From the NCBI GenBank assembly GCA_018340375.1, contig JAFFJZ010000014.1, forward strand, positions 7,440,001 to 7,504,000: a stretch of 64,000 nt of DNA, given 5' to 3'. The stretch comes from Gonatopus flavifemur. Lineage: Eukaryota; Arthropoda; Insecta; Hymenoptera; Dryinidae. Below are positions 207-63,214 of the stretch, one piece after another. A program made the translations under genes and the position numbers. The first letter of the stretch is position 1. Every line of letters begins with the position of its first letter. The notes below the pieces were generated by a model. It did no database searches and was not told the DNA's origin. It saw only the letters and a program-made list of their open reading frames with translations.

Positions 207-1331
207 TTAATGCAGTAGATGCTCAAAATGATGGCCTTCGACTTCAATACACATTTCAAAACGTTTTACAAAAGATTGCTGAACTCGTGCTAAAATATCT
301 TCATTGATGCTCGCGCATGCATTGATGATTCGTTGACGCATATTCTCAGGTGTAGTCGATGCTTGTTGATAAACTGTATCTTTTATGTATCCCCATAAAA
401 AAAAATCTGGAGAAGTAAGATCCGGAGAACGGGCAGGCCAATGAACTGGTCCACGACGTCCTATCCATCGTCCGGGATAATCTCTGTCCAATATTTCTCG
501 AGCTGTGACTGCATAATGGGATGGACAACCATCGTGTTGATACCACATATTCAATCGTTCCTGAATAGGTATGTCTTCAAGTAATGTTGGAAGTACTTGA
601 TCTAAGAAATGTCTGTACTTCTCTCCATTTAGCGTATCTGCAATGAAGTACGGTCCAATTACTCGAGATCGAAAAATACCACACCAAACATTCACAGCCC
701 ATTGTCTTTGATGCTCTACTTGACGTAACCATCTTGGATTTTCTGTCGCCCAGTAATGCATATTATGTAGATTTACTTGACCATGATTGGTGAACGTCGA
801 CTTATCAGAAAATAATATGTTGATGAAGTTGTTATTGTGCATTTGCGCTAGACCCCATCGACAAAACTGTACACGATTTTCGAAATCATCACCGTGAAGG
901 TCTTGATACAAACAAATGTGATACGGATGGAATTTGTGACGTTTCAGTATTCGAAGAACACTTCTTCGAGAAATTCCCGAATGGAGTTCAATTTCACGAG
1001 AGCTCACGTGTGGATTATTGGCTACTGCAGCTAGTACATTAACTTCCGCATTTTCTTCGCTAACAGTTCTCATTCGATGTCGTTTTTTCCTTGTAACACT
1101 CCCCGTTTCCGAGAATAATTTTGTAATGCGTTCAAAATACCTAATGGATGGCGTTGTTCTTTCAGGAAATCGTTCTGCATACAAGTCATATGCTTGTCTG
1201 GGGTTCTTATGCACTTCACCGTAAATGTAGATCATATCGATCTTTTCAGAAACCGTGCATCGGATATCCATGATTTTCAATTTGTCATAAACCAAGTAAT
1301 AATCAAATGTAACTGACAAACTGACTTTCAA
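207..1331 (-). CDS. DD41D Tc1/mariner-like transposase
   Basis: Predicted cut-and-paste transposase, 374 aa with no internal stop. The N-terminal ~60 residues after Met21 (MDIRCTVSEK) look like the DUF4817-type helix-turn-helix, followed by a Tc3-like HTH around residues 95-140. The catalytic triad reads D in FSDKSTF, D in QHDGCPSH and D in LTSPDFFLWG. I count 41 residues between the second and third D, so it is DD41D, as in rosa/Visitor-type elements and unlike DD34D mariner. Either Met1 or Met21 could start; Met21 fits the family length better. It lies inside long inverted repeats. It may be functional, but the K after the first D (usually E) is a visible deviation. Confidence 0.85.
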   Translation of the reverse strand: MKVSLSVTFDYYLVYDKLKIMDIRCTVSEKIDMIYIYGEVHKNPRQAYDLYAERFPERTTPSIRYFERITKLFSETGSVTRKKRHRMRTVSEENAEVNVLAAVANNPHVSSREIELHSGISRRSVLRILKRHKFHPYHICLYQDLHGDDFENRVQFCRWGLAQMHNNNFINILFSDKSTFTNHGQVNLHNMHYWATENPRWLRQVEHQRQWAVNVWCGIFRSRVIGPYFIADTLNGEKYRHFLDQVLPTLLEDIPIQERLNMWYQHDGCPSHYAVTAREILDRDYPGRWIGRRGPVHWPARSPDLTSPDFFLWGYIKDTVYQQASTTPENMRQRIINACASINEDILARVQQSFVKRFEMCIEVEGHHFEHLLH

Positions 1332-1390
1332 AATCGTGAATTTCCACTGAACCCCGTCGTTTGTTCACATCGCGTGAGCTCTGAATGGTG

Positions 1391-4284: not shown

Positions 4285-5625
4285 TCAAGCCTGTTTCCCT
4301 TGTGCTATTCTCGCACTGATATCTCTTTCTCTTCCACCGTTTTCTGTAATCATGCTTCCCAGATATTTGAATTCTTTGACTTGCTGAATTGTCTCTGCAT
4401 CTATTTTGATTTTCGTTCTTCTTGATGTTTTCGCTGTTGTACAAATCATGAATTTTGTTTTGTCCTTATTTATGTTCATACAATATTTGTCTTGTAATAT
4501 TTTTTTCGTACTTTCAGAGTGTTTTCTAACACTACTCATAGCTAATATAGCTATGTCATCCGCAAATCTCAATATGCTTACATTTCCACCTTGAATCTGT
4601 AATTTCAATGGCACTTGCTCTCTCACTCCGTTCATCGCTTCTTCTATATACAAATTGAAAATGGATGGGGGCCAAATTAACGAAAAACCAAATCAACGAA
4701 AAGTTGGTTGAAAAGAGAGATACGTCACACTCTCTCTTTTCAAACACTGATTTCGTTGATTTGTCTTTTCGTTAATTCGGCCCCCATCCTTGAAAATCAG
4801 TGGCGATAGTGAGCATCCTTGTCTCACCCCTCTTCCAATTTGTGCTCCTCCTTTTCGACCTCCTATTTCTATTATTGCGGTTTGATTCTTATATAATTCA
4901 TATATTATTCTCCTATCCCTGAAATCAATTCCTACCTTCCTCAAAATCGTCAATATCTCCTCCCAATCAACATCATCGAATGCTTTCTGTATATCTACAA
5001 AACCTATAAACACAGACTTTTTTAACTCCAGACTTTCCTCTACTACTGTTCTGAGCGCTAATATTGTTCCCCGCGTTCCCCTATTTCTCCTGACACCGAA
5101 CTGATCTTCTGCTCGTCTACTCTGTATTTTATTCTCTTTTCTCCCGTATATGATTTTTGTCAGTATTTTCGAGGCATGTGAGGTTGAACTAATCGTTCTG
5201 TAGTTCTCGTATTTGTCTGCTCCTTGTTTTTTTGAGATGGCGACAATTTTATTCTCCTGGAAATCTTTCGGTACTTCGCCTATTTCGTACATATCTCTGA
5301 CCAATCCGAACAGTGCGTCACGAGGTCTCTGACTGGAGGCTCTGATAAGGTCCGCACTTATGCCATCTATTCCTGGCGCTTTATTATTTTTCAATCCTTT
5401 TGAAGCCCTGTCGAATTCTGATCTCAAAATTGAATCTCTCAACTCTTCTTCATCGATATCTCCCTCCCCCTCTAAAAGTCGTATATGCTCGCTCCTTTTA
5501 TACAGATTTTCCAGATGATTAATCCATTGTTCTATTCCTTCCTCCGTTCTTATCAATTGTCTCCCTGGAGAGTTTTCAATCTTACTGCTTCTAGATTTCA
5601 TTTGTCCAGAAAATCCCTCAACCAT
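4285..5625 (-). pseudogene. LINE fragment: reverse transcriptase, interrupted
   Basis: The RT finger and palm motifs are readable: NNKAPGIDGISADLIRA, then RTISSTSHASKILTKII, then VFIGFVDIQKAFDDVDW (catalytic block A) and GRGVRQGCSLSPLIF (block B) at 4800-5625. After a 127-bp insertion the same protein resumes at 4653 with RFADDIAILA, the FADD catalytic block C, and NINKDKTKFMI. The two halves are adjacent residues of one RT once the insert is ignored. Sequence style is close to the RTE-like endonuclease-RT proteins widespread in insects. It is not functional because of the insertion and surrounding frameshifts. Confidence 0.8.
4663..4789. mobile_element. 127-bp hairpin MITE with 8-bp target duplication
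   Basis: Starts GGATGGGGGCC and ends GGCCCCCATCC. The first ~40 bases pair with the last ~40, and the middle (GAAAAGAGAG facing CTCTCTTTTC) nearly completes one hairpin. It is flanked by TTGAAAAT at 4655-4662 and 4790-4797. The 8-bp duplication fits hAT, P or Merlin mobilisation; the GGA terminus is not a classic hAT CA end. It interrupts the LINE reverse transcriptase. Confidence 0.85.
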
Positions 5626-5773
5626 CCTATATGCTCCATCAATTTTCCCTAATGTAATCTATATCTTGACATTTTCTCTCAAACCATTGTTCTTTTGCTT
5701 TCCTTGATTCTCTGATTATTTCATCCCTCAGTGCCTTGTTTGTCTGCTGGTCTGGTTCACCATTCTCATTCTT

Positions 5774-9666: not shown

Positions 9667-11985
9667 TCACTCCGATTCACAATGAACACAAGTGTAGTAG
9701 CCCGCTCTTAACTTGGCACACTTCAAGTGCACAGCTCGATCACATGTATTACAATGGATTGAGTTGTTCCTATTCAATTTCTTCGGCATAGGATCTTTGC
9801 AAATGATGCAAAACTCTTCTTCTTCTGAATCGGAGGAACTGGGAATTTTTTTCGCTGGTTTTGAATTGCGAAGGCGCTTAGCTGATGGTTCTCTGACGAC
9901 TTTTTCATTCATTTCTTTATCCCGTTTCGCCCCTTTCGCGCGCTTTGCTTCCGCCTTTGTTCGTAAATTAGCCACATTTTCCGGCGAAGTCAAAATGGTG
10001 CTTTCCATGGCCTTCCGTCCTCGTTTGGATTTCTTAATCGGGGAATAATGTTTGAGCGGGCCAACTCCTGTAATAGCGCTTTGAATTGATGCACCCGATG
10101 TGCTTGGAATCAAAGATGCGCTAGCTATTTCAAAATTAGGAGTGTTCACTTCTGGCTCAGCTGTTTCAATGACATCGTCACGAATAATTGAACGATGTTC
10201 GTGGTCATCTTCAGAGGCCTGATTTTTGCCACTTAGTTCAACAGCTTCGAAATCTTCAACCGTAAAGACATTGGGATCAGATGGATAAATTTCGGTTGCT
10301 CGAGATCCAGATTTGATATTCTTGAGCGTCGCACTCGCATCGAGGCATTTACTAGCAATAGGCACTATGTGCCTCAATTCCAAAACTCTACCAATATGAG
10401 ACTCCATCCAAATTTGACACTGGTTAAAGAACATTGTTTTAAATGGGCCAAATACGCTGACATCGAGAGGTTGCATTCTATGTGTGCAGTGAGGAGGGAA
10501 TGGAACCATAGTGATGCCGTTATCAATTGCCATATCTATGGCCTCCACACTTGGATGTGAGGTGTGGTTATCTAGAATCAAAAGTGTAGGCGAATTTTTT
10601 GATGCGTTGCTATATTTAATAAAATGTCTCATGTACTTGACAAATTCTTGTGACGTCATCCATCCCGATTCATTTGCCACGCCTACAGCACCGGGAGAAG
10701 CATTGTCCATAAATACCGACTGCATTTTTTTTCGAGGAAAAATATAAAATGGAGGGATCGACTGTCCACTCGCACTTACAGCAAACGCCATAGAGGCATT
10801 CGTGCCTCTTTCGGCTGACGTTTTCTGTCCAACTCTCCTCGCTCCTTTCAATGCAATTACGCGGACAGTCTTGGTCGGTACAGTCGGACAACCCGTTTCA
10901 TCCATGTTCCAAATGCGGTGCGCTTCATAAGTTATTCCTCGCTCAAACATCACAGCGGTCAAATTGTCAAAGAATGTCTTCACATTTTCTTTAGAAGAGC
11001 TTTTGGCACGATTTGCACTGATTTGTTCTGGTGTTCGGAGAGAGAGGTTTTGATGCCGATGCATAAATGCATTATACCAGTCCCACGACGCTTTGCCATG
11101 AGTGTCCCATTCCGCTGGATATTCGATGCCAATCTTCTTCGCAAACTCATAAGCCATCGTCTCCAACTCATCGATGGTTAATCCATAGTAAATCGAGCTG
11201 GCGTTGAGGAGATATTTTATCAACTCTTGCTCTTGTTCTGCGCTGAAAATCTAACAAAGAAAAAGAAATAAAGAATCCATGAACAAAATGTTGGAAAATA
11301 TTGAATTAAGGGCATTAGCGACTCCTAAAAATAGGGAACCCAGCCGAAATGTTCGTCATCTTCCAAACAAGAAAATCATGATTCGAACAAAAAACGATAA
11401 CGAGGGCTTCGCACCAGGATAGTTTGATGTGTCAGCTAACATTGTAGCCAACAAACACCCTCGAGATTCCTGCATGCATGTCAAAATAACGAATATACGA
11501 TACACTTCGAAAATTGGGGTGGAAATTGAACGTAATGTATTCAAGATTCCGTATTTTGATGTATCCAGAATTTTTGGGGATGTCGTTTGGATGAAATTAT
11601 AGCTGAAATATTCAGTCATCCTGGTGAAGAACCCTTCTTCGCATATTTTGTATGAATTTTAATTTTTTGTGTTCGAACCAGTGACTGCCTATACTTTGAG
11701 GCGTCACTAGTATCCCCTTAAAATGAAACAAACCTTTTTTCCACCAGTTTGACAGCTCAGCATGGAAACAAAATTGACTAATGTTTCATACGGAGCGGTT
11801 GTGGGATCTATGTCAGCCATTTTCAGCTTCGAAATGTAACGTGACAGTTTCGACTTATCGATGTTATATGCTGTGCCAACGGTCCTCAGTGGCCTTTTGC
11901 CAATGGTTATTTCTTCAATGGCAGCCACAAGGGCATGAACTTCAATCGGTTGTTTGCTACTTGAATTATACTTATGACGCGGCAT
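9667..11985 (-). CDS. Pogo/Tigger-like transposase with C-terminal PHD finger, two exons
   Basis: Predicted 611-aa transposase. Exon 1 is 11985-11734 (starts MPRHKYNSSS, with a pipsqueak-type HTH: ALVAAIEEITIGKRPLRTVG). The donor is AAG/GTTTGT. The intron is 11733-11251 (483 bp) with acceptor TTGTTAG, in phase 0. Exon 2 is 11250-9667. A DDE_1 domain has Asp201 (NMDETG), Asp311 (LILDNHTSH) and Asp347 (MQPLDVSVFG); 35 residues lie between the last two, so DD35D. A Lys/Arg-rich segment precedes a C-terminal cysteine cluster (CIIC, then HCNTC, VHLKC, YTCVHC) with PHD-finger spacing. PHD fingers bind histone tails, so a chromatin-targeting role is an inference. No frameshift or stop seen. TIRs and target duplication argue against a domesticated host gene. 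Confidence 0.88.
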
Positions 11986-18189: not shown

Positions 18190-18640
18190 TCAGACTACAG
18201 ATTTGGATTCAGAACCTTCGTAACCCCTGTAACCAATGTTCCTTATAAATCTGTGCACGAATGAGAAAATGACTCTTCTCACGTCCGCCATATTGGATTC
18301 ACGATTCCGAATGAATTTTTTGACTACATATCTGGATTCAGAGTCTTCGGAAACCCCTAGAATCCATGTTTCACACGAATCTGTCCAGAAATGCGGAAAT
18401 GACACAATTCACGTGCGTCATCTTGGATTCGTTTCCTGATTGCAGAATCGGTTTCAGTACCCTCGGAAACCCCTAAAATCCATGTTCCATCCGAATCTGT
18501 CCACAAATGCGTAAATGACTGAATTCACGTCCACCGTATTGCATCCGCCATATCAGATTCGTTTCCTCACTGCAGATTCGGTCTCCGCAACCTTGAAAAC
18601 CCCTGGAACCCTTGTTTCATATGAATCTGTCCCATGGAGA
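18190..18640. repeat. ~121-bp tandem repeat array, 4 units
   Basis: The landmark AACCCC following a Phe/Ser-like CTTCGG or CTCGG stretch recurs at about 18232, 18352, 18468 and 18598 (steps 116-130). Each unit includes GATTCGTTTCC or similar and a CATCTTGGATTCG/CATATTGGATTCA block. Period and motifs match the arrays inside the Transib element at 58.3 and 62.4 kb, more diverged. Confidence 0.75.
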
Positions 18641-20265: not shown

Positions 20266-20342
20266 AGTCTTCTCCAATTTTGTGATCGAGCAAATGTGTT
20301 TCATTTGTAAAAAAAGGGCGGAATTATATTCACAAACCCAAT

Positions 20343-20500
20343 ACGTTATCAGCGACCCCAAAAATCCCCTCGTATATACATTTTCTCATGATTCGGAAGC
20401 ATTTTATGAATTTCAGTATGCCATATTGAATCTGCCATCTTGAATTTTGAAAATCTGATGCTCGATTCGTTGTGAGTGACCTCAGAAAAATCAAAGTTCT
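20343..20500. repeat. Single diverged copy of the ~121-bp repeat
   Basis: ATCAGCGACCCCAAAAATCC, then GCCATATTGAATCTGCCATC, then TTGAATTTTG: the same succession of motifs as one unit of the 62.4 kb array. Confidence 0.65.
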
Positions 20501-35924: not shown

Positions 35925-37655
35925 TTATTGAGCATGAGCTTCATTGAAACATCCATCGCAGTAATACAAAAAACGAGTCTCACAAAATTCCCTCGTTCGA
36001 ATTTTACAACTCGAGGTACAGTAGTATCGTGGTGGATGTGTGTTCTCTTTGTCGTGTGCAGAAGGTCTCGCTTTGTTTGTTCTGTTTAGATAATCTCCCG
36101 CCACATGCATGGCAAAATCTTTCGTGGTAGCCTTCACTCTCTTACTCTTGGGACAAATATTGTACAAAATTGTGACGTCAGTTAGTGCCGTTTGAATGAG
36201 ACGGATGAAAATAATCCAGGTCCATTTTTTGGATCTCACAACTGGCTGTATTTTGTTGCAACGTTGATCGTGCAGGTCAACTCCACCCATGAACTGATTG
36301 TATGTGAGAATCGCTCTGGGAAATTCCAGTTGTTTTTTCTGTTTCTGACCCTTCTGCCGGCGCTCAACACTCCCCAATGGTGTCACTCCAGCTGCAGTGG
36401 ACAGAATACTCACGGGCCCAAAGTCCATCACTGTCATGGAATTCATGCCACTCTTTTTGTCATGTTTGACATCATACTTCCCTCTTTCATCGGTTTTTCG
36501 AATGTTATTTCGCACACTACCTCTATTCTCTCTCACTGTGCCGGTAGCACATAATCCATATTTCCTCAAATGGACCAGTAGATCTGGGCGAGTGAACAGA
36601 TTATCAAAATAGATCTGCAGTCGATCTCGGTTATGCAAGGATACATCCAGGGAGACTGATTGTAGCATGTTGATTACTACACGACTACCAAGGGGACAGT
36701 TGGATAATCTCTCGTTCCTTTCAGAATTTTCTCCACAATATATTCCAAAATCGGAGAGGTATCCATGGGCACTACAGAGAGCCCATAATTTCATCCCAAA
36801 CCTCACAGGTCCACCCCTCATGAACTGTGTCAGAACAGATCTGCCATAAAATTTCAACATCATCTCATCTATTGACAATGCAGTTGGAAAAACTCCAAAT
36901 TGAATCAGATTTCGTCTAAAGATATCTGTGGATTTCTTTCTAAGGTAGACCCTGTCGGTATTATCTTGATCTTCAGGTTGATGGAACTTTATTCTTGATT
37001 TGATGGTTTCAAATGTCTTGCGAGACATTGCACCTACTACCGGTTCAGCTTTCAAATGTGGATCCTGAGACCAATAATCTCTTCGAGATAATCTCTCATT
37101 GTACATAGTGAATATAATGATAGCAACAAATACTTTGAGGTCACTGATTGACATCTCGTAATCGTTTTTCTTCGTACACTCAACGATATGGGTCTTGAGC
37201 TTGAATGAGAAGAAATATTCAAACCACTGTGTTGGAGAACTGTTCGTTATGTCGGTTTTACTCTTTTGACTCAGTATGATCTCATTTGCAAGACTTCTAT
37301 CACGGTTGTATTCTCCATCGACTCACTGATACTCATGATGAGCCCCCAATTTTTTGTGTGAACTGTTATAATTTTCATAAACACCATCATAGGATTTGAA
37401 ATTCGGCAAAGCATCACTAACATCTCCAATCTCAGGAGAATCTGATTCGGGTTGCCTGACATTTTCATCTATAGAAGTATCCGGTTCAGAACCACCAGAA
37501 TCATCAGCAGGAGGAATGATGTTGGCATGAACAAAATCTCCACGTTTGTCCAATTCAACTGAATTGTGTAGATTCTTTGCAGCCCCTCTCTTCGCTGGAC
37601 CTTTCTTCGCAGCACCTCTCTTCGCAGTTGTTGGATCGCACTTCCTTTTAGGCAT
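35925..37655 (-). pseudogene. piggyBac transposase with one in-frame stop
   Basis: From MPKRKCDPTT (37655) the frame is open to a single TGA at 37323-37325 (after AHHEYQ), then stays open for ~465 codons to the stop at 35925; total ~576 residues, normal for the family. An acidic N-terminus precedes the DDE_Tnp_1_7 core: WFEYFFSFKLKTHIVE, DLKVFVAIIIFTMYN, then catalytic Asp in ALSIDEMMLKF, Asp in YFDNLFTRPDLL and Asp in FMGGVDLHDQ. The C-terminus has the cysteine-rich domain (YYCTSSCKIRTREFCETR, YYCDGCFNEAH). The TGA could be a CGA-to-TGA change. TCA/GTGAGT at the same place resembles a splice donor, but no acceptor gave a sensible junction. Possibly active until recently. Confidence 0.9.
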
Positions 37656-39357: not shown

Positions 39358-40319
39358 CCCACATACATCACATACGAGCACACATACACACTCGAACAAA
39401 CAAAGACACATCATTGAATATACATACACACCGAACATACTTACGAATACAACACATATATACACACTGAAACACATAAAAACACAACGAATTTTTCCCC
39501 TCTGAGATTTCGCACGCCTCTATCCATCTATGTTTATACACGAAGTCGGATAGAAAAAAATATACAACAAAAAGCAATACACATATATCATATTAAACAC
39601 GTAAAGACAAGATATAAAGGAGAATAAAAACGTTGCAAAATCAAGAAAATTGATCAGAAACCGATTAAACACCGTGTATATGAATTCCATAGAACAAACA
39701 ATGAGAAATACATTATATTCAAAGGAAATTATGAAGGTACGAATATCATACGAAAATATTGAAGCGTGTGTGTGCGCGCATGCATGCATGTAAGAAATCA
39801 TAGGAACACGCGTACACACACGCGAATGAGCCTAGAACGTGAAGGAAGGCATACATATCGTACAGAACGATAATCTACGCGCAAGAAGAAGAATAACCTT
39901 GAGCGCGGAGTAGAGTATCGTTGACGCGATACAAAGACATAAGACATAAACAACATTCCTGAGACGATACAAAGGACAAGAAAGCACGTATGAACGAATC
40001 GATTGAACAAATCGAAGTCTAAAATCCCTTGATAAATCCAAATTGAAGACGAATAATTCAAAAGTAATAGCACGAAATATTAAATAGAAATTCAATTGAA
40101 CAGAATGATCAGCAGAATCAGAAATATAACTACACATATTACTGGACACACAAACCATACAAAAGACGAGCGGAGAACACACATACACACATATAATCAT
40201 GTATGTGACACATACACACAAACACCAAGAAAACTATACGAACTGACAATACGAATAGCACCAACTCTACAATACACACTCATACTAGGAATAGACAGTC
40301 TGAAAATGATGCAAACACG
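39358..40319. other. Gypsy leader region, no gag recognised
   Basis: A/C-rich with many ACACATAC-type repeats. No plus-strand ORF with gag, nucleocapsid or protease motifs. Long minus-strand frames rich in Val, Phe and Cys are the complement of this bias. Confidence 0.6.
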
Positions 40320-43243
40320 ATGAACTGGAAATTGAAAATTACATCCAATGAGAACAAACACGATAAACACTCAGAACAAAAAGAAACAAAGGAAAACGAA
40401 ACACGAAACACTAAGACAGGAAATAGAAAAACGAAAATCACACAAAAACATAGCACACGCAGGGGGAAAGTACTATTGCCAACACCACAAATCAAAGCGA
40501 ACACAAAACTGTACCCAAACGCGCCAATATTAGATAAAAAACAAGTAGAGGAAATGCTATGCGGATCAGATCTCCAAAAACAAGAAATAGAATTCGTTAA
40601 CAGTATAAAAGGATTAAAAGTATACGGAAAAAAACAAATCGATAAAATAGTACAAAAATTCACACAAAACACAGAGGACACATTACAACACACAGAACTA
40701 GTGAAGCACAAGATGAAACTAGAAAAGAACGAACCGAAAAAACAAAAACCTTACAACACATCACCAACAATTTCACAACACATGCACATAGAGGTAGATA
40801 GAATGTCACAACAGAATATAATAGAGCCATCCAACAGTGACTGGTCAATCCCAGTAGTCATGATCCAAAAACCGAATAAAACATATAGATTTTGCATCGA
40901 CTTTAGATACTTTAACTCACTCACAAAAAAAGACGCATACCCAATACCAATAATGACAAACATACTAGACAAACTGAACACAGTAGACTACATATCAAAA
41001 ATTGATTCGAGCCAAGCATATTTTCAAATATTATTAAAAGAGAACAGCAGACAAACGACGGCATTCACAGAGCCGGGAAAAGGATTATACCAATTCAAAA
41101 GAATGCCATACGGACTGACGAACGCACCCGCGACATTTCAAAGACTAATGGACAAACTAATAGGACCGGACTCAGAACCCTGCGCATTTTCATACCTAGA
41201 CGACATAATAATAGTAACAAAAACCCTAGAAGAACACCTTCATTGGCTAAGAACAACCCTGCAGAAGATTAAAAATGCGAAGTTAACAATAAACAGGGAA
41301 AAATGCGAATTCGGATGCACACAGGTCGAATACCTAAGATACATAGAGAACAGAAACGGATTACACATAGACGGGGACAAAATACAACCAATATTGAACT
41401 ACACCCAACCGAAAACAATGACAGATTCGTAGATCAATGGGTAAGACATCATGGTACAGAAGATTCATACCAAACTTCGCCCAAAAATCGGAACCAATAA
41501 GCAGATTATTAGAAGGGAACTGCAAGGAAAAATGAGCAAAAGAACAGGATAAAGCGTTGCAAGGAATAAAAGACATACTTACAACACCACCAGTATTGAA
41601 ACAACCGGACTTCACAAAACCATTTTTCATACACACAGATGCCAGCAACATAGGACTGGGAGCAATGATTACACAAACACACGATAAAACTGGACACGTA
41701 ATAGCGTACGCGAGCAGAACACTGAACGACGTGGAAAAAAACTACTCAGGAACAGAGAAAGAGTGCCTAGCGGTAAAATGGGCGATAGAAAAGTTTAGAC
41801 CGTACATAGAAGGGGAAGAATTCACGGTAATAACAGATCACGCGGCGCTGAAATGGCTACATAACCTGAAAGACCCTGAATGCAGATTAGCTGGATGGGC
41901 CTTAGAATTACGACACCATGATTACGAAATAATAAATAGGAAAGGAAATGGACACTACGTCCCAGACGCACTATCACGACAAAACACAGAAAAAACAGCA
42001 CACATAACACAAACAACAGATACACGGTACAATTACAATAAGCAAGTACAGAAACACCCGGACGAAAACAATAATTGGACGATCAAAGACGAAAACCCAT
42101 ACTTTTACAGACCAAACCCACTACACTCAGATATACTGCCAGATAATAACCCATGGAAACTAGTAGTACCAAAACAGTTACGGAGGAGAATCTTAATCGA
42201 AAATCACAATAACCCACAGGCAGGTCATCTAGGGATCGAGAAAACATACGCAAGGATAGCAGAGAATTGCTTCCGGCCAGGAATATACGGGGACGTGACC
42301 AGATACGTGAAAAAAGGCGAGAAATGCCAAAAATCAAAGGTTGATCAACAAAAACCCGCAGGGCTCATGGGGTAAAGAATCGTAGAGGAACCCTGGACAG
42401 TAGTATCGATGGATATAATGGAACCCAAACCAACAACCAAAAACAGAAACCAATACATATTAGTTATGACGGATCTATACACAAAATGGACAGAAGTAGC
42501 ACCCATGAGGGAAGCCAATGCAGAAACAGTGCAAAAGATAGTTAAAACACAATTAATATCCAGATGGGGAACCCCCCGGGTGATAGTAACAGATAACGGC
42601 CAACCATTCGTGAATAAACCAATGAAAAAGCTCACAGAAACACTAGGGATCAGACACATGACAACACCCCCATACCACTCACGAGCAAACCCAGTGGAAA
42701 GAAGCAATAGAACAACCAACGCAATGATAAGAACATTTTCAGACGGTAACCACGAAAACTGGGACGAACACTCAGAAGATTCACAGTTCGCAATCGACAC
42801 GAGCAAACACAGCACCACAAAATACACATCAGCATTCCTAAACCTAAGCAGGGAACTCACACCACTACAATCATCAAAACACGACGTAGAAAACACAAGA
42901 AATAGAAAACACAGACATAAATCACTGGACAGACAGACTAAAGAACCTACAAATAATTGGAGAAGAAGTACAAAAACACTTATCAGAAGCAAACGAAGCA
43001 CAAACACATCATTATAATTCACGCAGGAGAAACACAGAATTCGAAATGGGAGATAGAGTATTGAAATTGTACCACATACTATCCTCGAAACAGAGAGGGA
43101 CAACAAGTGAATGGGATAAAAAATATACAGGCCCATACACAATCATAAAAAAATACTCGCTGCTAGTATATGAATTATCAAATAGGCAGGGAAACTCTAC
43201 CGGAAGAATACACATGAAAAATCTAAAAAGATTCTACGAATAA
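40320..43243 (+). pseudogene. Gypsy pol: RT, RNase H, integrase, with breaks
   Basis: 40320-41432 covers the pre-RT region and RT: YRFCIDFRYFNSLTKKDAYP, RMPYGLTNAPATFQRLMD, and the catalytic SYLDDIIIV. After a frame change near 41430 and a TGA near 41535, 41557-42375 gives FIHTDASNIGLGAMI (RNase H), YASRTLNDVEKNYSGTEKE, a zinc-binding region (HLGIEKTYARI, CQKS) of integrase. An in-frame TAA at 42373-42375 separates it from 42409-43017: VMTDLYTKWTE (Asp), VIVTDNGQPFVN (Asp), NPVERSNRT (Glu). 43046-43243 is the C-terminal beta-barrel-like end (YTGPYTIIKKYSLLVYEL). No protease seen. Inactive. Confidence 0.9.
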
Positions 43244-47651: not shown

Positions 47652-49405
47652 TCAAACATGATAAAAAAGAATTTGTTTATGCAATTTCTGTAGAACGTTA
47701 ATCCGTTCACCTAAATTACCATGAGTACATGTTCTTGCGTAAGTTGGAATTCGTACGTTCAAGTAACTCGAAATTGATACTTTGATTAATTGGACTTCAT
47801 ACAAAGGTTCATCTCCTGTATTGCATAAAATCGGATGAGGAGGATGAGATTTGAAATTTTTCAATAAAAGATGAGTCAAAACAGCAGTAAGGATGTTTTG
47901 CTTGAACTGTGCGTTTGGCATCATTCCTGTATTCACTTCCAATTGAAAAGCTCTTCCCGTCCAAAAAATTATCTGGAAACTTGCATCTGATGGAAACAGA
48001 AGTTTTCCCCTACTAATAAACGTCGTGAAAGAAGCATATTCATTTATATCCACTGTGTAAGTGTGATCCATATTTGCGGAATTAGCTAATAATAATTTTA
48101 TACAGTTTTCACAATTGATTTTTGTCAATAAATTTTGAATCATGCAACCTGTCATATAATATAGTATGTTCTGTTTCATTACACTGAGATTTTGTTCATC
48201 TATCAAACTGATTAGTGTCGTTAATGTTTCTGTTTCTTTGTTATCATCAATTGCGATTTTATTTGTTCGCTGGATTTTCAATATACTTATGGTCTCCGTG
48301 TCATCTCCCAAACAATTCGCATTGATACTGGGTTGTGCGCTGTTCTTGAATAGCATTTGCCGAAGGCTCCATTTAAATTGTAACGTGTTGGGATTATCAT
48401 TCCATCCTCCATGATTCCTTATACAACTGAAAGTGATTTCTAAATGATCTTGCGAACATTTGTATGGTAAGAAATACTTGAATGGACAATTTGTTTTATT
48501 CAAAACATCAGAGGCTAAATCATCAATGCTTTTAATATCAATCAAAAATCCAAGGAACCCGGTTTTTCGTTCATGTTGAAATACAGATTTCTCTTCGATT
48601 TTCAATTTTTGAATGTATTCAAAAGTTTCGCGAAATACAGATTGAATATGAGACAAATTTTTCAGAGAAAAAGGAGATTTGAATCCAGTACCCAATGAAT
48701 TTCTAACATTTAGCATATCGAATGAACGATCGAATATTCGGATAAATTCAACTGTCGCTCCAGAATTTTTGAAACTTGCAGCCCCAGCTTGCCTTAAAAA
48801 ATCGATTGCATTTGCAACTCCGTTACTGATTGTTTGAACAGGAAGTCTAACGTTCATTTTCTTATTATAGAAATTCATATGTTCTCTGGATAATTTGTTG
48901 GACAATTCCAAATCCTCTTCTTCTTGTAAATTATGTGACGCACTTACATAACTGAATAATATGCTTCCTTTTTCAGATTCCAGAACTTTATCAAAAAAAG
49001 TATTCCTAACCAGTTTAATCATATGAGCAGGATCAATAATGCAGTAAACGTTGATTGTAAGTGAACAAGGATGTGGAAACGAAGTTTTGAATGTTTCAAA
49101 CTTTGAATTATCCATTGTTGACAAATCTATACTGAGGAGTTCAAAAGTTTTCAAATTCGCTTTGGTGTCATCGCAGGTGATGGAACGTACAATGATACCA
49201 ACTTCGTAAAGTTTACTGAGTGCATGAATAAGTAATTGTTTCTGAATGACTGCACATAACTTATTGATAAAAAAATATGCAATTGGGCACTTGAATTTTC
49301 TTGTATATGAAACTATTTGCAGCACTAAAACTTCTGATGCCAATTCATTGCTACATTGTGAGTTGTCTATTTCTTCATTAAAATTGCCAAAATCAACGAA
49401 ACCTC
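47652..49405 (-). pseudogene. P-type transposase C-terminal exon
   Basis: Resumes after the mariner with RGFVDFGNFNEEI, the block that follows the first catalytic segment, and runs ~580 residues without a stop to KLHKQILFYHV. Visible motifs: LVLQIVSYTRKFKCPIAYFF, SITCDDTKANLK (second catalytic Asp region), YCIIDPAHMIKLVRN, and CSQDHLEITFSCIRNHGG (catalytic Glu region). The middle corresponds to the GTP-binding insertion of the P-element family. Joining across the TA does not, by my reading, restore frame without a 1-nt adjustment. Apart from the mariner the coding sequence is remarkably intact. Confidence 0.85.
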
Positions 49406-49407
49406 TA

Positions 49408-50730
49408 CGAGGTGTGTTCAAAAAGTAAGGTGACTTTGTATTTTTAAGAAGAAATATTTATTTATTTATCAATATTTATGTTGTCCCCTTCAAAGTAATT
49501 CCCCTCAGATACAATACACTTATGCCAACGGTTTTTCCAATCCTCAAAGCACTTCTCATAAGCACTTTTCGGTATAGCCTTGAGCTCTTCCAGCGATGCA
49601 GTCTTTATCTCTTCAATCGTTGCAAATCTCCGTCCTTTCATAGGTCTCTTTAGTTTTGGGAACAAGAAAAAGTCACATGGGGCCAAATCCGGTGAATATG
49701 GTGGCTGAGGCATGATTGTGGTGTTGTTTTTGGCCAAAAAATCTCTCACAAGCAAAGATGAGTGAGCAGGGGCATTATCGTGATGCAAAAGCCATGAATT
49801 ATTCTTCCACAATTCTGGACGTTTTCTTCGTATTGCTTCTCGCAAACGGCGCATAACTTCAAGATAATACTGTTTATTGACCGTACGACCATATGGTAAG
49901 AACTCCTGATGCACCACGCCATGGTAATCGAAGAAAACAGTGAGCAAAACTTTGACATTTGATCGAACTTGACGTGCTTTTTTCGGTCTTGGCTCATCTG
50001 GGGTCTTCCATTGGGACGATTGGACTTTGGTTTCGACATCATAGCCATATACCCATGACTCGTCACCAGTTATGACCCTTTTGAGTAAATCTGGGTCGTC
50101 GTTGACGTCATTCAACAGTTCTTGAGCGATGCTCATGCGACGGTTCTTTTGGTCAAAATTTAGCAATTTCGGAACAAACTTCGCTGACACACGTCTCATG
50201 CCCAAAAACGTTGGAAAAAATTTCATGGCACGAGCCAAGCGATAAACCAACATCCTCAGCAACTTCTCTGATAGTGATTCGACGATTTTCCAAAACAATT
50301 TTCTTCACTGCTTGAACGTTTTCATCAGTTGTTGACGTGCTTGGGCGTCCAGAGCGAGGCTCGTCATTGGCATCTTCCCGGCCATCTTGGAAGAGTTTGT
50401 ACCACTTGTAAACATTTTTTTTACTCAGAACAGTTTCACCGTATGCTACTGTCAACATTTTAAGTGTTTCAACGCACTTTATTTTATTTTTTACACAAAA
50501 TTTGATGCAAATCCTTTGATCCATATTTTTCGATAGCAAGAAATCGCCGAGCACGTAAAACACTTATAACCTTTATGCCTCTCACAACCAAACAAAAAAT
50601 GCTATACACTTGAAACTTGGTACAGATGTTCGGGAAGAGTGTGCCAACATAACAAAACAAAAAAATCGATAATCGAAAGCACGTTGCCCGCGAAATTTGA
50701 AAAGTCACCTTACTTTTTGAACACACCTCG
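49408..50730 (-). mobile_element. Complete mariner (1323 bp) inside the P-type gene
   Basis: Inverted ends CGAGGTGTGTTCAAAAAGTA continuing AGGTGACTTT on both sides, with TA at 49406-49407 and 50731-50732. The TIRs are nearly identical, indicating a recent insertion. Confidence 0.95.
49462..50524 (-). pseudogene. Mariner transposase, one frameshift (DD34D)
   Basis: Starts MDQRICIKFCVKNKIKCVE. HTH part: VLSKKNVYKWYKLFQDGREDA, then RRITIREVAEDVGLSLGSCH. A frameshift near 50210, at an A/T homopolymer, separates GSCHEIFSNVF from LGMRRVSAKFVPKLL. DDE domain: VITGDESWVYGYD, WLLHHDNAPAH, YSPDLAPCDFFLF; 34 residues between the second and third Asp, all three present. C-terminus: CFEDWKNRWHKCIVSEG. 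With one lesion and near-perfect TIRs it is the youngest-looking mariner here. Confidence 0.92.
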
Positions 50731-50732
50731 TA

Positions 50733-51367
50733 TATGCGTCTTTCTTTCGGTCATACAAAATTTGTTGACGCAAAGACATCGAGTCAAAAATCAGTGCTAC
50801 GTCAGTGAGGAATTCTAATTTCAAACTATTCTGTTTGAAATATTCAAAAACTCCAGTAATGAAGCCAACCTCGCAATCATGAGCAGCCATCCATGGACGA
50901 ATCGTGGCACTATGCGGCAAACAAAGAACAGTGCATAAAAAGTTGTAAGTTTTTGGACTGTAAAAGTACACTGTCATAGCGAATTGTTTCATGCTTTCGG
51001 TATATTCGGAGTGATTCGAAGTGGTACGTCTGTTATGCAACTCATTCAGAATACATCCCAATTTCATTCCAGTGAATTGCTGTTTTATGATGGTTTCTAA
51101 CTCTTTCGAATCCGACTTGCGTAGATACTTAAGCAATTCTTTGACGTTCATGAGTTTGAAGTTTTTGTGCTTTACCTTTGCATGCAAGGCTTTCACCTTC
51201 TTTCTAACACCTTCTTCGCTTGGAGAACCCAATAATCTTTTAGGAGATACCTGAGTACCTATTGCTTTGGTGTGTACAGATACTTGTACACCTTTTTCTG
51301 TACTTTTCATGAAAAGTTCTGTGATGTCTTCGAAATGTGGAGTATTTGGTTCACAATTCTCTTCATC
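50733..51367 (-). pseudogene. P-type transposase middle exon (coiled coil and first catalytic Asp)
   Basis: Acceptor ATTACAG at 51368. It reads DEENCEPNTPHFEDI, then a basic helix (VRKKVKALHAKVKHKNFKL) resembling the dimerisation coiled coil, an HTH-like part, SPKTYNFLCTVLCLPHSATI, a DUF-type block RPWMAAHDCEVGF, and VALIFDSMSLRQQILYD, the block holding the first catalytic Asp of P-type transposases. It stops where the mariner inserts (TA at 50731-50732), within KKDAY. Confidence 0.8.
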
Positions 51368-51607
51368 CTGTAATCAGTTGGAATGGAAAGAGTTGTAATG
51401 ACAATATATAGAGGAGAATCATAGTTATTGTGGAATAGCATTGTTTATAACACAAATAAACGCACGCGCTCCAATTATAGACAGAATTAAAACGAGAATA
51501 AACTTCTATTGAAATTATTATTAACACTGAATCCCATCATGTTATATGTTATCACTCATGTTCAATGCCTACCAAAATATTATTATATTATATATTATTA
51601 GATGCAC

Positions 51608-56196: not shown

Positions 56197-57727
56197 TAAT
56201 AGATTGTGATGAGAAAACATCAATGAAATGCATTTGAATCGCTATTCCATTCATGCATACCATATGGACGTCCTCCAATTGGAATACCAAATGCAAATGG
56301 ATGGAAAATCGTAAAATTGAAAATCGTAGGTATAAAGGGTTTGATCCCATTAGATTCCCTCTCAACTCAAGGAACTTAGAATGACATGTAATTCTTTCAC
56401 TGGAAAGTTCCAACAAAATCCACTGAATTTTCTCATGATATTCACATCGGATATCCCAATGGATTCCGATGAGACCTATCAATAACATCATTATAGGACG
56501 CTATTAAATTTATACATCTCATATGGATATCCTTCGATTGGAGATTCCAATCATAAGGCGATAGAAGTGACTGAATAAATGATTTGTCCTCTCCGATAAC
56601 AGGAATTTTTGGAACTTCCAATAGCAGCCTACGGCACTGTGAACTGATTTCAATTGGAAAATCATGTATATTCGTCACAGCATTCCCACATGGAATAAAA
56701 TAACGGTATTATTGATCATTCAATCGCACTTCCCAATAAAATCCAATGAAATTCATACACCCAAAAGTTGATCTATCCAGATAGAAATGCATCAATATAA
56801 ATATTGGATTAACCTCATCCAGCCTATTGAAATAACCCGTATCATCGAGTTATTCCCAATATCATTGAAAATAAATGTTTCATTGATGATTTGAATGATT
56901 CTAATGATTATATGAATGTTGAGGAGGAATAATTCAAGACAGAATGAATTGCACATCAATATCTTTGCATGAACAATTCTTATGGTTTATTCATCAAGAC
57001 AATCATCGTTAGAAGAGAGGCAATATATGAATATAACGATGCAGTCAAATTTTAAAACTTGTTTCTCCACTTCTCATACAATAGTCATTATTCTCCTTAT
57101 CATAGTCTAATTCACATGATTAAGGAAATCCCGACAAAATACATTCTAATAGGCATACAAAATGTCCTTTCACAAATTCATTTAGAATGATTATTGTTCA
57201 CGTGAGAGAGAAGAGAGGAGGACTTATCTTGTTTTCTTCGTTGAACGGAGTCTTGGTCGGTGTTGTAGCCACGTGCGCCTCGCAATAATTCCATTAATTA
57301 TCATCTATGCGAATACTGGATATTATGATCAGTCATGAACTTCAGGATCCATCAAACTCCAAAACGATTCGTTGGAAGACGATTTATACAGAATCGTACG
57401 TCTCTGATAATAAATGAAAAAGAACAAATCCTTGAATTCCAAAAGTTTTGTCTTACATCAATTATGGTGATCGTGATCGTATGGCGACTTATTCGTGACT
57501 GCCTCTCCTGTCCGCGTATCATCTCTTCATCCCCACTGGTATCTCCTCTTCCTCCCTTCTCTCTCTCTCTCTCTCTCTTTCTCTACTTTCTTCTCTCTCT
57601 CATTTTCTTATATCACACGTTACACTATCCATTTTTGAAATGCCAATCCCAATAGAAAACGATTGGTACACTTCATGTACGAATACGGCTCAAACTATTT
57701 TCTCAGGCCCATATGGAATCACCGATG
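56197..57727. other. No gene; includes a (CT)n microsatellite
   Basis: AT-rich. (CT)n occupies about 57558-57587 with further CT-rich sequence to 57605. Nothing else recognised up to the Transib element at 57728. Confidence 0.5.
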
Positions 57728-57762
57728 CACAGTGGGGCCAAATGCCAAAAAGCTGGCCAAAA
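57728..57762 (+). repeat. Transib left TIR with RSS-like heptamer
   Basis: CACAGTG, 22 bases, then CCAAAACCC, which matches 7 of 9 positions of the RSS nonamer ACAAAAACC. The right TIR (62986-63020, reverse complement) has CACAGTG, 22 bases, then ACAAAATTA, 6 of 9. Confidence 0.85.
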
Positions 57763-58345
57763 CCCCAAAAATGAAGTTTGTAGTTGGGGATATTTGACCC
57801 TTGGGATAAGTAAGGTGATGTCCCAAGTATTGGAATTCTGATATAAGAAGATCTGATCCCCTCCCCCTGCCCTTGTGTACCAGTTGCAAAATACCCTCCT
57901 TGAAGTATAATCCGCGTGATTGAAAGACAGTAAAATAACGAGCATGTTCAAAAAGACGCTGTGTCTCGAAAAATGAACCGATTTAACTTTTTCAAATTGG
58001 AGTCTATTACTGAAACTATGTAGAATACACTAAAAATTGAGAGAATATCAATTTGATGAGTGGAAAATACTGACAGAGCAATGATTGGATGTAATTTCTA
58101 TATCTATAAATGAGAAAATGTGTTCGGTTTTTGAAGGAATAGTAATGAATTACGCAAAATTACGTCGTTTAACTTATTGGAGGTGGTGGATGGGACTCTT
58201 ACCTAAAAATCAGAAAAAAAAACGGCTGCCCATGTCTGCCCCTAAGCAATTCCGCCATGTTTTTGTGCAGGAAATCACAAAAAATTAGACGGAGTGATGA
58301 GGATCCCTTAGATCCGTCTGAAACTTGATATGCAGAAGTTTGTGG

Positions 58346-58780
58346 GGTCGCTGATTATGAATCCGTTGTCTTCATTTCGGAATTCAAAATGGCAGATCCA
58401 ATATGGCGGACGAAAATTGAAAGAAATCATCGGATTTTCTTCAAATTCGTTACCCAGGGGTTTCTGAGGTCGCTGATTACGAATCCGTTGTTTGAATTTC
58501 AAAATTCGAAATGGCGGATCCAATATGGCGGATGAAAACTGAAAAAATCATCGGATTGCCTTCAAACTCGGTACCCTGAGGTTTTTAAGGTCGCTGATTC
58601 CGAATCCGGTGTCTGAATTCCGGAATTCAGAATGGCGGATCCAATTTGGCAGAAAAAAATTGGAAAAATCATCAGATTTCCTTCAAACTCGGTATCCAGG
58701 GTTTTGTTGGGTCATTGATTACGAATCAGTTGTCAAATTCCGAGAATCAAAGATAGCGTATCTAATATGGTGGACACAAA
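58346..58780. repeat. Transib left subterminal array, 4 units of ~121 bp
   Basis: The landmark GGTCGCTGATT (or GGTCATTGATT) starts at 58346, 58469, 58589 and 58710 (steps 123, 120, 121). Each unit has an AATCCGTTGT block, AAATGGCGGATCCAATATGG and a TCATCGGATTT block. Orientation is opposite to the right array. Confidence 0.9.
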
Positions 58781-59440
58781 ACTCAGAATTCAGTAGATTC
58801 GCTTTGAATTTTATCTCAACGTTAGTATGTGTCTTATTTCCAGTGTACATTTGCTGCACGAGGAAAACTGATTGATTACCATTCGTTTTTTTTTTCATCG
58901 CGGGCTTAGGGTACACGAAAGCCAGAAATCATTGATATTTAGGAAGATGATGGACCATTGAGAGAAAAACAGTATTGCTGGAGAATATTCGTAGTGAATT
59001 TACTATGAGTTGATGAATTCACTATGGGAAATGACAATAAAACTACCAACATTTAGTATTATTACTACGAATTTTTAGTAACTTCACTGCTAACATTCTT
59101 CAGCGATGCTCTTTTTCCCTAAAGTGACCGTCATTTTCCTAAATGTTTATAAATGTTATTCAAGTATTGATATCTCTTTTCTTTTCGTGAACTGAATCAT
59201 GACTCGCAATTTGGTGATGGTTCTTATGTTAACCTATCGTTTCCATGGCAACGTAAACAGTTGGTTGTAATCGGTCTGATTTCAAATGGTGCTTATCACA
59301 ATTGTGCAATAGCTGTCACCGTATTCTTACTCTTGCTAGTAATCGTTACCGTAAACTTTTTTCCGCGTGCAAGTTTGGAGCTTGGTGAATATTTTTCGTT
59401 TTTTAAAATCATTCAATGTTAACATACAATTCCAAATGAG

Positions 59441-62149
59441 ATGGATTCCGCTGCCATAGGTGAGTGTTTCAACAACCTATATTTTCTTAGTAGTTTAATT
59501 TGAACAGTTGACTGCAAAAAAAATTAGCTTAAGAGGGTTGAATCCAACCCAAGAAAATTAGGAAAATTTTTAGAAACACATGGGGTTTCTGTAGCGAATT
59601 TCATCGAATTCTACAACGTTTGTGGATTTCAAAGATGATTCAATATCTATGACTCGGAGAGAGATGTACAATATTTTAAGGAGCAGTCCTCTACCTACGT
59701 TGGATGGGAAGTTCACTTCCCTTCAAGGAAAAATCATCGAGATAACGTGTTGTCCGGATAACAAAACTACAGAGATCTCTAACTTTTTATCTACTTTTAA
59801 ATGTGTATTTAAAAAGAGATGGGAATCTTCTCAAAGGACCGAAGAACGATTTCTTAAAAATAATGAAGAATGGTTAAAACGAGAGGTAGTGTTTTGTACT
59901 TTCAGGAATCCCCATTCTGTAACTGTTCACACGCGAGTGGGAAGACCTCTTGTTGAATTCAACGAATGTTCAGAAAGAACGAAACGTAGGAAAACGGAGA
60001 ATATCAGAGTAAATACTCCTATCTCAGAGCTGTCTTACGCCACACAAATGTGTTTGAGAGCGTCTGGACAGATCGAAGCCGCAAAAATTGTAAAGGATAT
60101 TACATCTCCTGATCCTGAGCTTGCCAAAATGTATATGAAAGGTTATCAAACTTTCAAGCGAAATGAGCCAAAGATGTTGAATGATGAAGATGCTCTAGCT
60201 CTCCTAGTAGATGCCGAGCTCTCAAAACATCAGTACTGCTTATTGCGTGAAGCTGATCCGCAGAAATTTCCACCTTATAAAAAAATTCAACTGGCCAAAC
60301 GCATGTGTTTCCCTGACAAGGAATTTATTCAAATAACAGAAACCTGCGCTGTTATGCAACTACAAGCACTTCTTGATCACACAGCTACATGTATTTTAAA
60401 GCTACAGAACTCGGTTTTGTCAACTTTATCTGATGAAGAGTTACAAAACCTGGTACTTATTTCCAAATGGGGGTTTGATGGGAGCTCTGGCCACTCCTCA
60501 TACAAACAAGCATATCAAAGTTCGGAAGCTAGTGATTCCGCTGTGTTCATTACTTCACTTGTGCCTCTCCGCCTACACTGCAATTCAAAAATAATTTGGC
60601 AGAATCCAAGGCCATCATCAACTAGATGTTGTAGGCCAATCAAAATAGAGTTTGTGAAAGAATCAACTGAAGTTTCGGTTGCAGAGAAGCTACGGGTTGA
60701 TAATGAAATAGAAAATCTGAGGGCTACTTCTTTCAGAACTGATGAAAAACATGTTTCAGTGAAACATGAGATGATTTTTTCTATGGTGGACGGGAAGGTA
60801 TGCAATGCCATAACTGAGACAACCCATACCCAGAAGTGCTATATATGTGGTGCCACATCTAAGAAATTCAACAAAATTGATGATATAGTATCCAGGCCGG
60901 TCAAAACCGAAAACCTCCAGTTTGGTTTGTCTTGTCTACACGGCTGGATACGATTTTTTGAGGGCCTCCTGCATTTGTCTCATAAGCTACCTATTCAGAA
61001 GTGGCGAGCACGAAAACAAGATAAAGCTCCGGTGGAAGAACGAAAAAAGGTTGTACAGAAAAGTTTTAAAGAAAAATGTGGCCTCATTGTCGATGTTCCT
61101 AAGCCAGGGTTTGGGAACTCAAATGATGGGAATACCGCTAGGCGATTTTTCGCACAACCCGAAGTTTCTGCCGAAATCACAGGGGTGGATGTCAACCTAA
61201 TACAACGACTTCATGTAGTATTAGCTACCGTTTCAAGTGGCCATGAAATAGACGTTGAAAAGTTTCGGAGTTACGCTTCAGACACGGCACGCTACTACGC
61301 GACAAAATATCCGTGGTACCCAATGTCACCTACGATGCACAAGTTTTTGATCCACGGACCTGAAATCATTGCATCTGCTCTTCTACCTATAGGCCAATTG
61401 ACTGAGGAAGCACAAGAGGCTCGTAACAAAAATTTTAAAAGGTGAAAATGATGTATATCACTCAATAATAGTCTATATTTGTCACAGTGGACTCGACACT
61501 TTGAAGGGAAAAATTTGACTTCTCAAGTACTGCAATCAGTTTGATACATTGCACAATACGTTTTTGACTACTAGGCAAACTATATATTTATGGTACCCAC
61601 GAGAATATATGTTCGCGAAGATTGTTTTGTTCTGGTAAGGAATTCGGGGAATTATGAATATTCATATACTTTTTTTCATTAATAAGCCACATTGTTCATC
61701 CTCTGGAAACATGAATTCATAGACTAGAAAACAATTTTGAGAATCAAGTAAACTTATGAATTAGAGGATTTATTCAAAACTTTATACTGATGACCCCAAA
61801 GTGCAGCTGCTTTTTGTTTTTCCTTGATTTTGCTTGTCATGTTGAGATCGAAAGCTTTAACGGTGTCGATGAATACATAATTATATTCAAATATCTTAAC
61901 AACATTCATTTCCAAAGGTACCGAGAGCATCACTCCAGGAAATGCAGTAGAGAAAAAACGAATGAAGACATTTTTGAATGGTTCCTTTTGAGTTCTGATC
62001 CAATGTTATCGAGTAAAAGACAGTTGCCCAAGAAAAAACTGAAGTTTCTCCCTAGAGACGTGTTAAGCCTGATCAAAACTCCGGATATACTTGATAAAGA
62101 CAACGTAACTTTCCCATTATCTTCCTCTGAGAGTGAAGAAGAAGACTGA
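59441..62149 (+). CDS. Transib transposase (RAG1-core homologue), three exons, 685 aa
   Basis: Exon 1 59441-59459 (MDSAAI; donor ATAG/GTGAGT). Exon 2 59635-61441 (acceptor TTTCAAAG; donor AAAAG/GTGAAA). Exon 3 61918-62149 (acceptor TCCAAAG). The joins keep frame and give 2058 nt including the stop. The protein would cut at the TIRs by a D-D-E mechanism shared with RAG1. Visible residues: Asp288 in SKWGFDGSSGHS, Asp392 in SMVDGKV, followed by the CYIC zinc pair, and Glu601 in EEAQEARNK, matching the RAG1 triad order. The segment FITSLVPLRLHCNSKIIW and RPSSTRCCRPI are typical Transib blocks. The C-terminus is acidic (SSSESEEED). No stop or frameshift in the body. An earlier acceptor at 59593-59594 would lead to a stop after ~14 codons. 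The first exon is the least certain part. Confidence 0.9.
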
Positions 62150-62394
62150 TCTGAGTAAAAAAAGTGTGGCAAAAGTAAAAACCATTACGATTTCAGTTTT
62201 CTATATTATTGTATATATTGTGAATGTATATATCTTCCGATTTGACACATTTGGTGTGTTAATATCATTCGATAATTATATTAATGATGATTCAATGTTG
62301 GAAATAATAATAATAATGATCATAATAGGAACAACAAAATGGGCCGTTTGGTTCTTGTTTAATATTAAGTTATTAATGAAGTTTTGATTTTTGG

Positions 62395-62945
62395 CATCCG
62401 CCATCCTGAATTTCGGAATTCTGACAACGGATTCGTGATCAGCGATCCCGAAAACCCCTGGGTACCGAGTTTGAAGGGAATCCGATGATTTTTACAATTT
62501 TCGTCCGCTATATTGGGTCCGTTATTTTGAATTTTGAATTCCAGACCGTGGATTCGTAATCAGCGACCACAGAAACCCCTGAGTACCGAGTTTGAAGAAA
62601 ATGCGATGATTTCTTCCAATTTTCGTCCACCATATTGGATCCGCCATTTTGAATTTCGAAATGAGAACAACGGATCCGTGATCAGCGACCCCAAAAACCG
62701 TTGGGTACCCAATTTGAGAAGAATCCGATGATTTTTAAAATTTTCGTCCGCCATATTGGATTCGCCATTTTGAATTTTGGAACTCAAACAGCAGATTCGT
62801 AATTAGCGACCCCAAAAACCCCTGATCACCAAGTTTGGAGAAAATCCGATGGTTTCTTTCAATTTTCGTCCGCCATATTGGATCCGCCATTTTGAATTTT
62901 GAAATTCTGACAACGGATTCGTAATCAGTGACCCCATGAACTTCC
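62395..62945. repeat. Transib right subterminal array, 5 units of ~121 bp
   Basis: AGCGAYCCC-type landmark at 62441, 62562, 62684, 62805 and 62927 (steps 121-122). Same unit as the left array, reverse complemented, with GTCCGCCATATTGGATCCGC and CATTTTGAATTT blocks. Confidence 0.9.
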
Positions 62946-63214
62946 CGAGTACGAAGTCGCAAGCGAATTTGAGAGCCCCTTATAATTTTGTCCAGCTTTT
63001 TGGCATTTGGCCCCACTGTGCGATGCATGTGAACAGGCCGGAAAATCCTCATCGAATCAAATACTCCTCAGCATTGTAATTCCAAATAGAAGTCAATCAA
63101 TGCATAAAACCCATGAATTCCGATTCATGGGCTATAAGGATTTCCAAATCAGAGCACAATGATGGAGACCCCCAACAATATCCAATACATCCATTGTTTA
63201 CATTTTCTGTCTTC

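Follow-up and report, generated by a model that had tools for sequence, protein, structure and literature searches.

Transib transposons are described in PMC7204232 as single-gene elements with less than 22% identity to RAG1/RAG1L, and their 5-bp target duplications are reported to be biased to GC (PMC7204232, PMC8289069). For HzTransib of Helicoverpa zea (GenBank DQ788836), PMC1852546 gives a length of 3518 bp, a deduced protein of 489 amino acids (aa) and the target site duplication (TSD) GCTCG, and PMC6941560 gives the DDE triad as D126, D225 and E436, along with a cleavage reaction in which a hairpin is formed on the flank and the element end is cut blunt. PMC9435367 distinguishes two groups of Transibs: Subgroup I is closer to RAG1L, and Subgroup II is further from it and lacks the alpha11-alpha12 region that Subgroup I shares with RAG1L; in that account, the placement of HzTransib in Subgroup II is implied rather than stated. 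We analyzed a stretch of 64,000 nucleotides (the window) from the hymenopteran Gonatopus flavifemur (Dryinidae; contig JAFFJZ010000014.1, positions 7,440,001 to 7,504,000), which contains, at window positions 57728-63020, a member of the Transib superfamily. We are highly confident that this is an HzTransib-like cut-and-paste element, autonomous by its anatomy, whose family has spread fairly recently to several hundred copies. The single copy in the window is ordinary; the surprise is the size of the family, because a genome typically has a single autonomous Transib copy, or a few at most (PMC4411706).

The window element is similar to HzTransib in its transposase (208 of 441 aligned residues identical, 47%), in the register of the DDE, CxxC and HxxxxH residues, and in having a 5-bp TSD and terminal inverted repeats (TIRs). 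It differs in that its family members are mostly 5.3-5.7 kb long and encode 685 aa in three exons, with a longer N-terminus, and in that they carry subterminal arrays of a 121-bp unit and number several hundred. The reported GC bias agrees with the duplications found, CGATG in the window and CGNCG-like across 20 copies, the window copy included, and the single-gene description (PMC7204232) fits the window element because it contains no second long frame.

Anatomy and transposase of the window element

The features of the element are as follows (window coordinates; residue numbers are those of the predicted transposase).

57728-63020: whole Transib element, 5293 bp, bounded by the TIRs and the CGATG duplications
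57723-57727: left TSD, CGATG, identical to 63021-63025
57728-57762, plus strand: left TIR, starting with CACAGTG, 34/35 identical to the right TIR
58299-58783, plus strand: left subterminal array with 4 repeats of a roughly 121-bp unit
59441-59459, plus strand: predicted exon 1, 19 nt, with the ATG, placed by splice signals alone
59635-61441, plus strand: exon 2, transposase, placed by the HzTransib alignment
59940-59948, in exon 2: GRP motif, residues 109-111
60477-60479, in exon 2: catalytic D288, aligned with the same residue of HzTransib
60789-60791, in exon 2: catalytic D392, aligned with the same residue of HzTransib
60837-60848, in exon 2: zinc pair C408 and C411 (CxxC), aligned with HzTransib
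61338-61355, in exon 2: zinc pair H575 and H580 (HxxxxH), aligned with HzTransib
61416-61418, in exon 2: catalytic E601, aligned with the same residue of HzTransib
61918-62149, plus strand: exon 3, C-terminal part; the HzTransib alignment is gapless over the exon 2/3 join
62391-62941, minus strand: right subterminal array, about 4.5 units of 121 bp (5 motif matches), inverted relative to the left array
62986-63020, minus strand: right TIR, 34/35 identical to the left TIR
63021-63025: right TSD, CGATG, exact 5-bp repeat of the left one

A first-pass annotation of this DNA had proposed an intact Transib transposon with matching CACAGTG ends, a perfect 5-bp CGATG duplication, a three-exon gene whose joins keep frame, and a D-D-E triad with a CxxC pair. 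All of these features were recovered, the gene as a predicted frame, and the description as intact holds with the qualification that the right-hand array has 5 units, compared to 8 in the commonest form. Each TIR is 35 nt long and starts with CACAGTG; extended to 36 positions, the match between the two ends is 34, compared to 20 for the best of 20,000 random base draws from the two 300-bp ends. The predicted join (59441-59459, 59635-61441, 61918-62149) comprises 2058 nt, i.e., 685 codons with a single terminal stop, and an alternative in-frame ATG is found inside exon 2. Read on without splicing, exon 2 meets a stop codon at 61443-61445, nine codons past the catalytic glutamate; therefore, splicing of intron 2 is required for the C-terminal part. 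By this anatomy, the element would be autonomous.

The same annotation had suggested a search of the predicted join against Transib and RAG1 models. Using phmmer against PDB sequences, we obtained the HzTransib chain 6pqn (6 entries with identical sequence) with an E-value of 7e-126 and 424 bits over query residues 188-651, and far weaker matches to RAG1L and RAG1 (see below). Residues D288, D392 and E601 align with chain positions 109, 208 and 419, and a single offset of 17 converts these positions to the reported D126, D225 and E436; the CxxC and HxxxxH pairs are in register as well. In RAG1, the corresponding residues serve as zinc ligands. An AlphaFold prediction of exon 2 alone, made from the single sequence, had a mean predicted local distance difference test score (pLDDT) of 32.8. 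We found no relatives of the element in viral contigs.

In a pairwise alignment, the transposase is collinear with HzTransib, with no large insertion. The element shares with Subgroup II this collinearity with HzTransib, symmetric TIRs and the GRP motif of a region resembling the nonamer-binding domain (NBD). The collinearity and the symmetric ends make membership in Subgroup II likely, and the element is probably not from the Transib branch nearest to RAG. The first-pass annotation had also considered an autonomous copy informative about how V(D)J recombination arose; the bearing on that question is only indirect, because Subgroup II Transibs, which by implication include HzTransib, are further from RAG1L than those of Subgroup I (PMC9435367). 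Searches for the RAG1 NBD, with residues 82-190 against PDB sequences and residues 1-190 against Pfam, found nothing of significance. The GRP motif was considered as a novelty and rejected, since it is only a short motif and a GRP-bearing NBD equivalent is already reported in both Transib subgroups (PMC9435367).

The family in the host genome

The host genome (636 Mb, 402 contigs) has 68 matches to PF02949 (7tm_6, the insect odorant receptor family), as expected of an insect, whereas 14 control genomes have none. We searched it with a 29-nt TIR core, allowing at most 2 mismatches, and found 467 forward and 445 reverse matches, i.e., 912 ends, whereas the reversed control gave 0. No element can supply more than one end in each orientation, which implies a minimum of 467 insertions. 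Exon 2 had 478 candidate places in the genome; the best 40 of these, including the window copy, were scored and were 98-100% identical, with 39 matches spanning positions 1-1807 and one spanning 1-1805 of the 1807 nt. Thus, the ends and their duplicated flanks are shared by other copies, which the first-pass annotation had named as a point on which its reading could fail, and its statement that intact Transib copies are few does not apply here, given the hundreds of copies indicated and an open frame in 22 of the 40 examined. Positions were obtained for 100 of the 912 ends, all exact matches, apparently because exact matches came first; these ends form 34 forward-reverse pairs 5,293-14,809 bp apart, 33 of them less than 7.6 kb, and none of the 34 is shorter than 5,293 bp, as a non-autonomous derivative would be.

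The 40 copies, i.e., the window element and the 39 best exon 2 matches, are a non-random sample. A spliced frame was counted as open if it had the ATG, both GT-AG pairs, no frameshift (in-frame indels were allowed) and a single terminal stop. Among the 22 copies with such a frame, all except L046 retain the seven catalytic and zinc residues. For intron 1, the donor GT is present in 39 and the acceptor AG in all 40 copies; for intron 2, the donor is present in all 40 and the acceptor in 37, one of the other three being unreadable.

Both TIRs and readable flanks were available for 26 of the 39 fetched copies (one more copy had no right flank), and identical flanking 5-mers were found in 19 of the 26. 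With the window copy included (n = 20), the consensus of the duplication is C (18/20), G or A, any base, C or T, and G (18/20); CGATG itself occurs in three copies, including the window. When the joined flanks of these 20 copies were compared, no two represented the same site (L030 and L044 were alike at 76%), so the copies are separate insertions and not duplicate contigs. The joined flanks of L040 match window positions 995-1142, inside a Tc1/mariner-like frame, without gaps (141/148), and those of L030 (88/111) and L044 (102/140) match a window repeat near 26.4 kb, also gapless over the site. In each of the three cases, the match is to a paralogous empty site that carries the 5-mer once, indicative of clean insertion. 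Copy L032 was not counted as an empty site because its match hardly spans the insertion site.

The ends, the 5-bp stagger and the target preference of the element are read directly from these copies. From the biochemistry of HzTransib, we infer the chemistry and activity of the transposase: it would bind both CACAGTG ends and form hairpins on the flanks, leaving blunt transposon ends, and the excised element would then be joined, 5 bp apart, at CGNCG-like targets.

The subterminal arrays were absent from the first-pass annotation and were added in the present analysis. The left and right arrays are mutually inverted, and their matched stretches are mostly 75-89% complementary. Units were counted in 28 elements with both ends, including the window copy: the numbers of left and right units are 4+8 in 19 elements, 4+7 in four, 4+6 in two, 4+5 in two (the window copy and L017) and 3+8 in one. 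The right-hand count ranges from 5 to 8, so that copies of close similarity differ in their number of right-hand units, the window copy being one of the shortened forms. The arrays may act as inner DNA for binding, as additional transposase sites, or for regulation, or they may be passive minisatellites whose unit number grows and contracts; neither possibility is strongly favored. Diverged relatives of the unit are also present outside the element, at window positions 18193-18640 and 20341-20488, in tandem or singly; thus, the 121-bp sequence is not restricted to the Transib element.

Age and present state of the family

The distance of the 40 copies to the column majority is 0.29-1.16%, the mean pairwise distance is 1.46%, and 447 of the 591 minority variants are private to one copy. 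This pattern is star-like, pointing to a recent spread, and the family appears to have reached several hundred closely similar copies fairly recently. The mutation rate of insects is about 3e-9 per site per generation; at this rate, the spread would have taken place within a few million generations or less, an estimate that is rough because of an apparent A-to-G mutation hotspot.

The A-to-G (T-to-C) changes in the gene region (59420-62189) of the 40 copies are strong and recurrent, and mostly affect the A that opens an A-run preceded by T or G. We counted 125 events at 95 TAA sites and 117 events at 148 GAA sites, compared to about 0.05 per site for NAT. Changes of this type account for 38 of the 44 variants common to three or more copies, and, of 1692 overlapping pairs of shared sites, 1391 cannot be reconciled with a single tree. 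As a control, we used 20 copies of the transposon at window 207-1364, in which the same context is affected (TAA, 12 events at 32 sites; GAA, 21 at 62), with no A-to-G excess among widely shared variants (2/6). Hypermutation specific to the Transib family was therefore rejected, as this Tc1/mariner-like family has the same sequence context; the pattern is either a genome-wide mutation hotspot of the insect or a systematic error of the assembly consensus.

A serious alternative, which we judge somewhat short of probable, is that the family is dead or dying, i.e., that amplification lies in the past and no copy is now active. The open-frame and splice-site requirements are failed by 18 of the 40 best-matching copies, and the ratio of observed to expected nonsynonymous changes is 1.15 for shared variants, which gives no sign of purifying selection, and 0.76 for private ones, which is a weak signal. 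Conversely, divergence within the family is low, 22 of the 40 frames are open, and the 100 TIR ends with known positions, presumably the best matches of the 912, are all exact. Variable sites are found at 375 of 2058 exon and 175 of 651 intron positions, a comparison that is unusable as proof of selection because the copies were ranked on exon 2.

Several further observations weigh against our interpretation of an autonomous, recently spread family. An in-frame stop or a frameshift interrupts the gene in 14 of the 40 copies, and a further four fail at a splice site (L016, L039), at the final stop (L013) or for want of exon 3 (L026). Distinct indels number 2 in exon 2 (1807 nt) versus 11 in exon 3 (232 nt), and the fraction of open frames is biased upward because copies were picked by their best exon 2 match. 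One TIR is missing from the fetched stretch of 12 of the 39 copies, in some cases because the stretch was too short, and the flanking 5-mers are unequal in 7 of the 26 copies. Only two of the 40 copies are more diverged from the majority than the window copy (1.08%; 18 nonsynonymous and 5 synonymous changes), which is also three right-hand array units short of the commonest form; being both diverged and shortened, it may be inactive despite its open frame.

That the element is a RAG-like (RAG1L-RAG2L, ProtoRAG-type) transposon and not a Transib is very improbable. Like ProtoRAG and related RAG-like (RAGL) transposons and vertebrate RAG1 with its recombination signal sequence (RSS), it has the RSS-like heptamer CACAGTG and a 5-bp TSD, and its C-terminal part is the stretch that best matches RAG1 chains. 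These matches are weak (RAG1L, 6b40, E 3e-5; ten RAG1 sequences, E 0.0007 to 0.01; Pfam RAG1 profile, E 3e-5, under its curated cut-off), and the HzTransib match is stronger by about 400 bits. Moreover, the element differs from ProtoRAG/RAGL in its symmetric ends and in that no RAG2-like gene was found: between the TIRs, no other stop-to-stop frame exceeds 129 aa, and the one of 129 aa contains exon 3, although no kelch profile search was made and a gene heavily split by introns is possible. The one open spliced frame of the window element would also fit a Transib transposase gene that the host has domesticated, but this can be practically dismissed: the TIRs and TSD are intact, ends are dispersed in the genome by the hundred, and 14 of the 40 copies have stops or frameshifts.

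Neighboring transposons and the meaning of the copy number

The 64-kb window is densely packed with transposons. Window 207-1364 contains an open frame of 385 aa that matches Pfam DUF4817, with HTH_Tnp_Tc3_2 below its cut-off; it has 202 candidate places in the genome, the best 40 of which were scored at 98-100%, and we read it as a Tc1/mariner-like element, a second DNA transposon with recent amplification. Other transposon types, named beyond their Pfam labels as we take them to be, comprise P-element-type transposase pieces at 47655-49457 and 50708-51373, split by a mariner-type frame on the same strand at 49465-50304, so that 47655-51373 looks like a nested insertion; a long frame of piggyBac type (DDE_Tnp_1_7) at 35928-37322; a long frame of pogo/Tc5 type (DDE_1) at 9670-11250; and a polyprotein of long terminal repeat (LTR) type with RVT_1, RNase H and integrase zinc domains at 40209-42372. 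A reverse transcriptase frame is located at 4696-5658.

For comparison with the Transib family described here, Drosophila simulans is reported to carry about 27-55 transib2 per genotype (PMC7141027), and 40 Transib sequences with 188 copies are reported in Helicoverpa armigera (PMC7764229). For the wasp L. boulardi, Transib is mentioned as one of several superfamilies of high abundance, in a passage that leaves autonomy unstated (PMC6035795), and this counts against full uniqueness of a high-copy Transib. Apart from that remark, our literature searches, mostly at the level of titles and opening lines of abstracts, yielded no report of a high-copy Transib or of Transib subterminal arrays. The rare survival of active Transib copies has been tied to the genome instability they can cause (PMC4411706).

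The spread to several hundred copies is of interest to transposon specialists, and the minimum of 467 insertions indicated for one closely similar family would supply many natural copies for testing which features of the ends, arrays and protein accompany success. It is possible, though on balance unlikely, that the invasion is ongoing or very recent, with hundreds of autonomous full-length copies, few miniatures, and variable 121-bp arrays that take part in transposase binding or regulation. If true, this would run counter to the idea that Transibs can persist only in very few copies, and the family would be a natural system in which to study how a RAG-like transposase is controlled.

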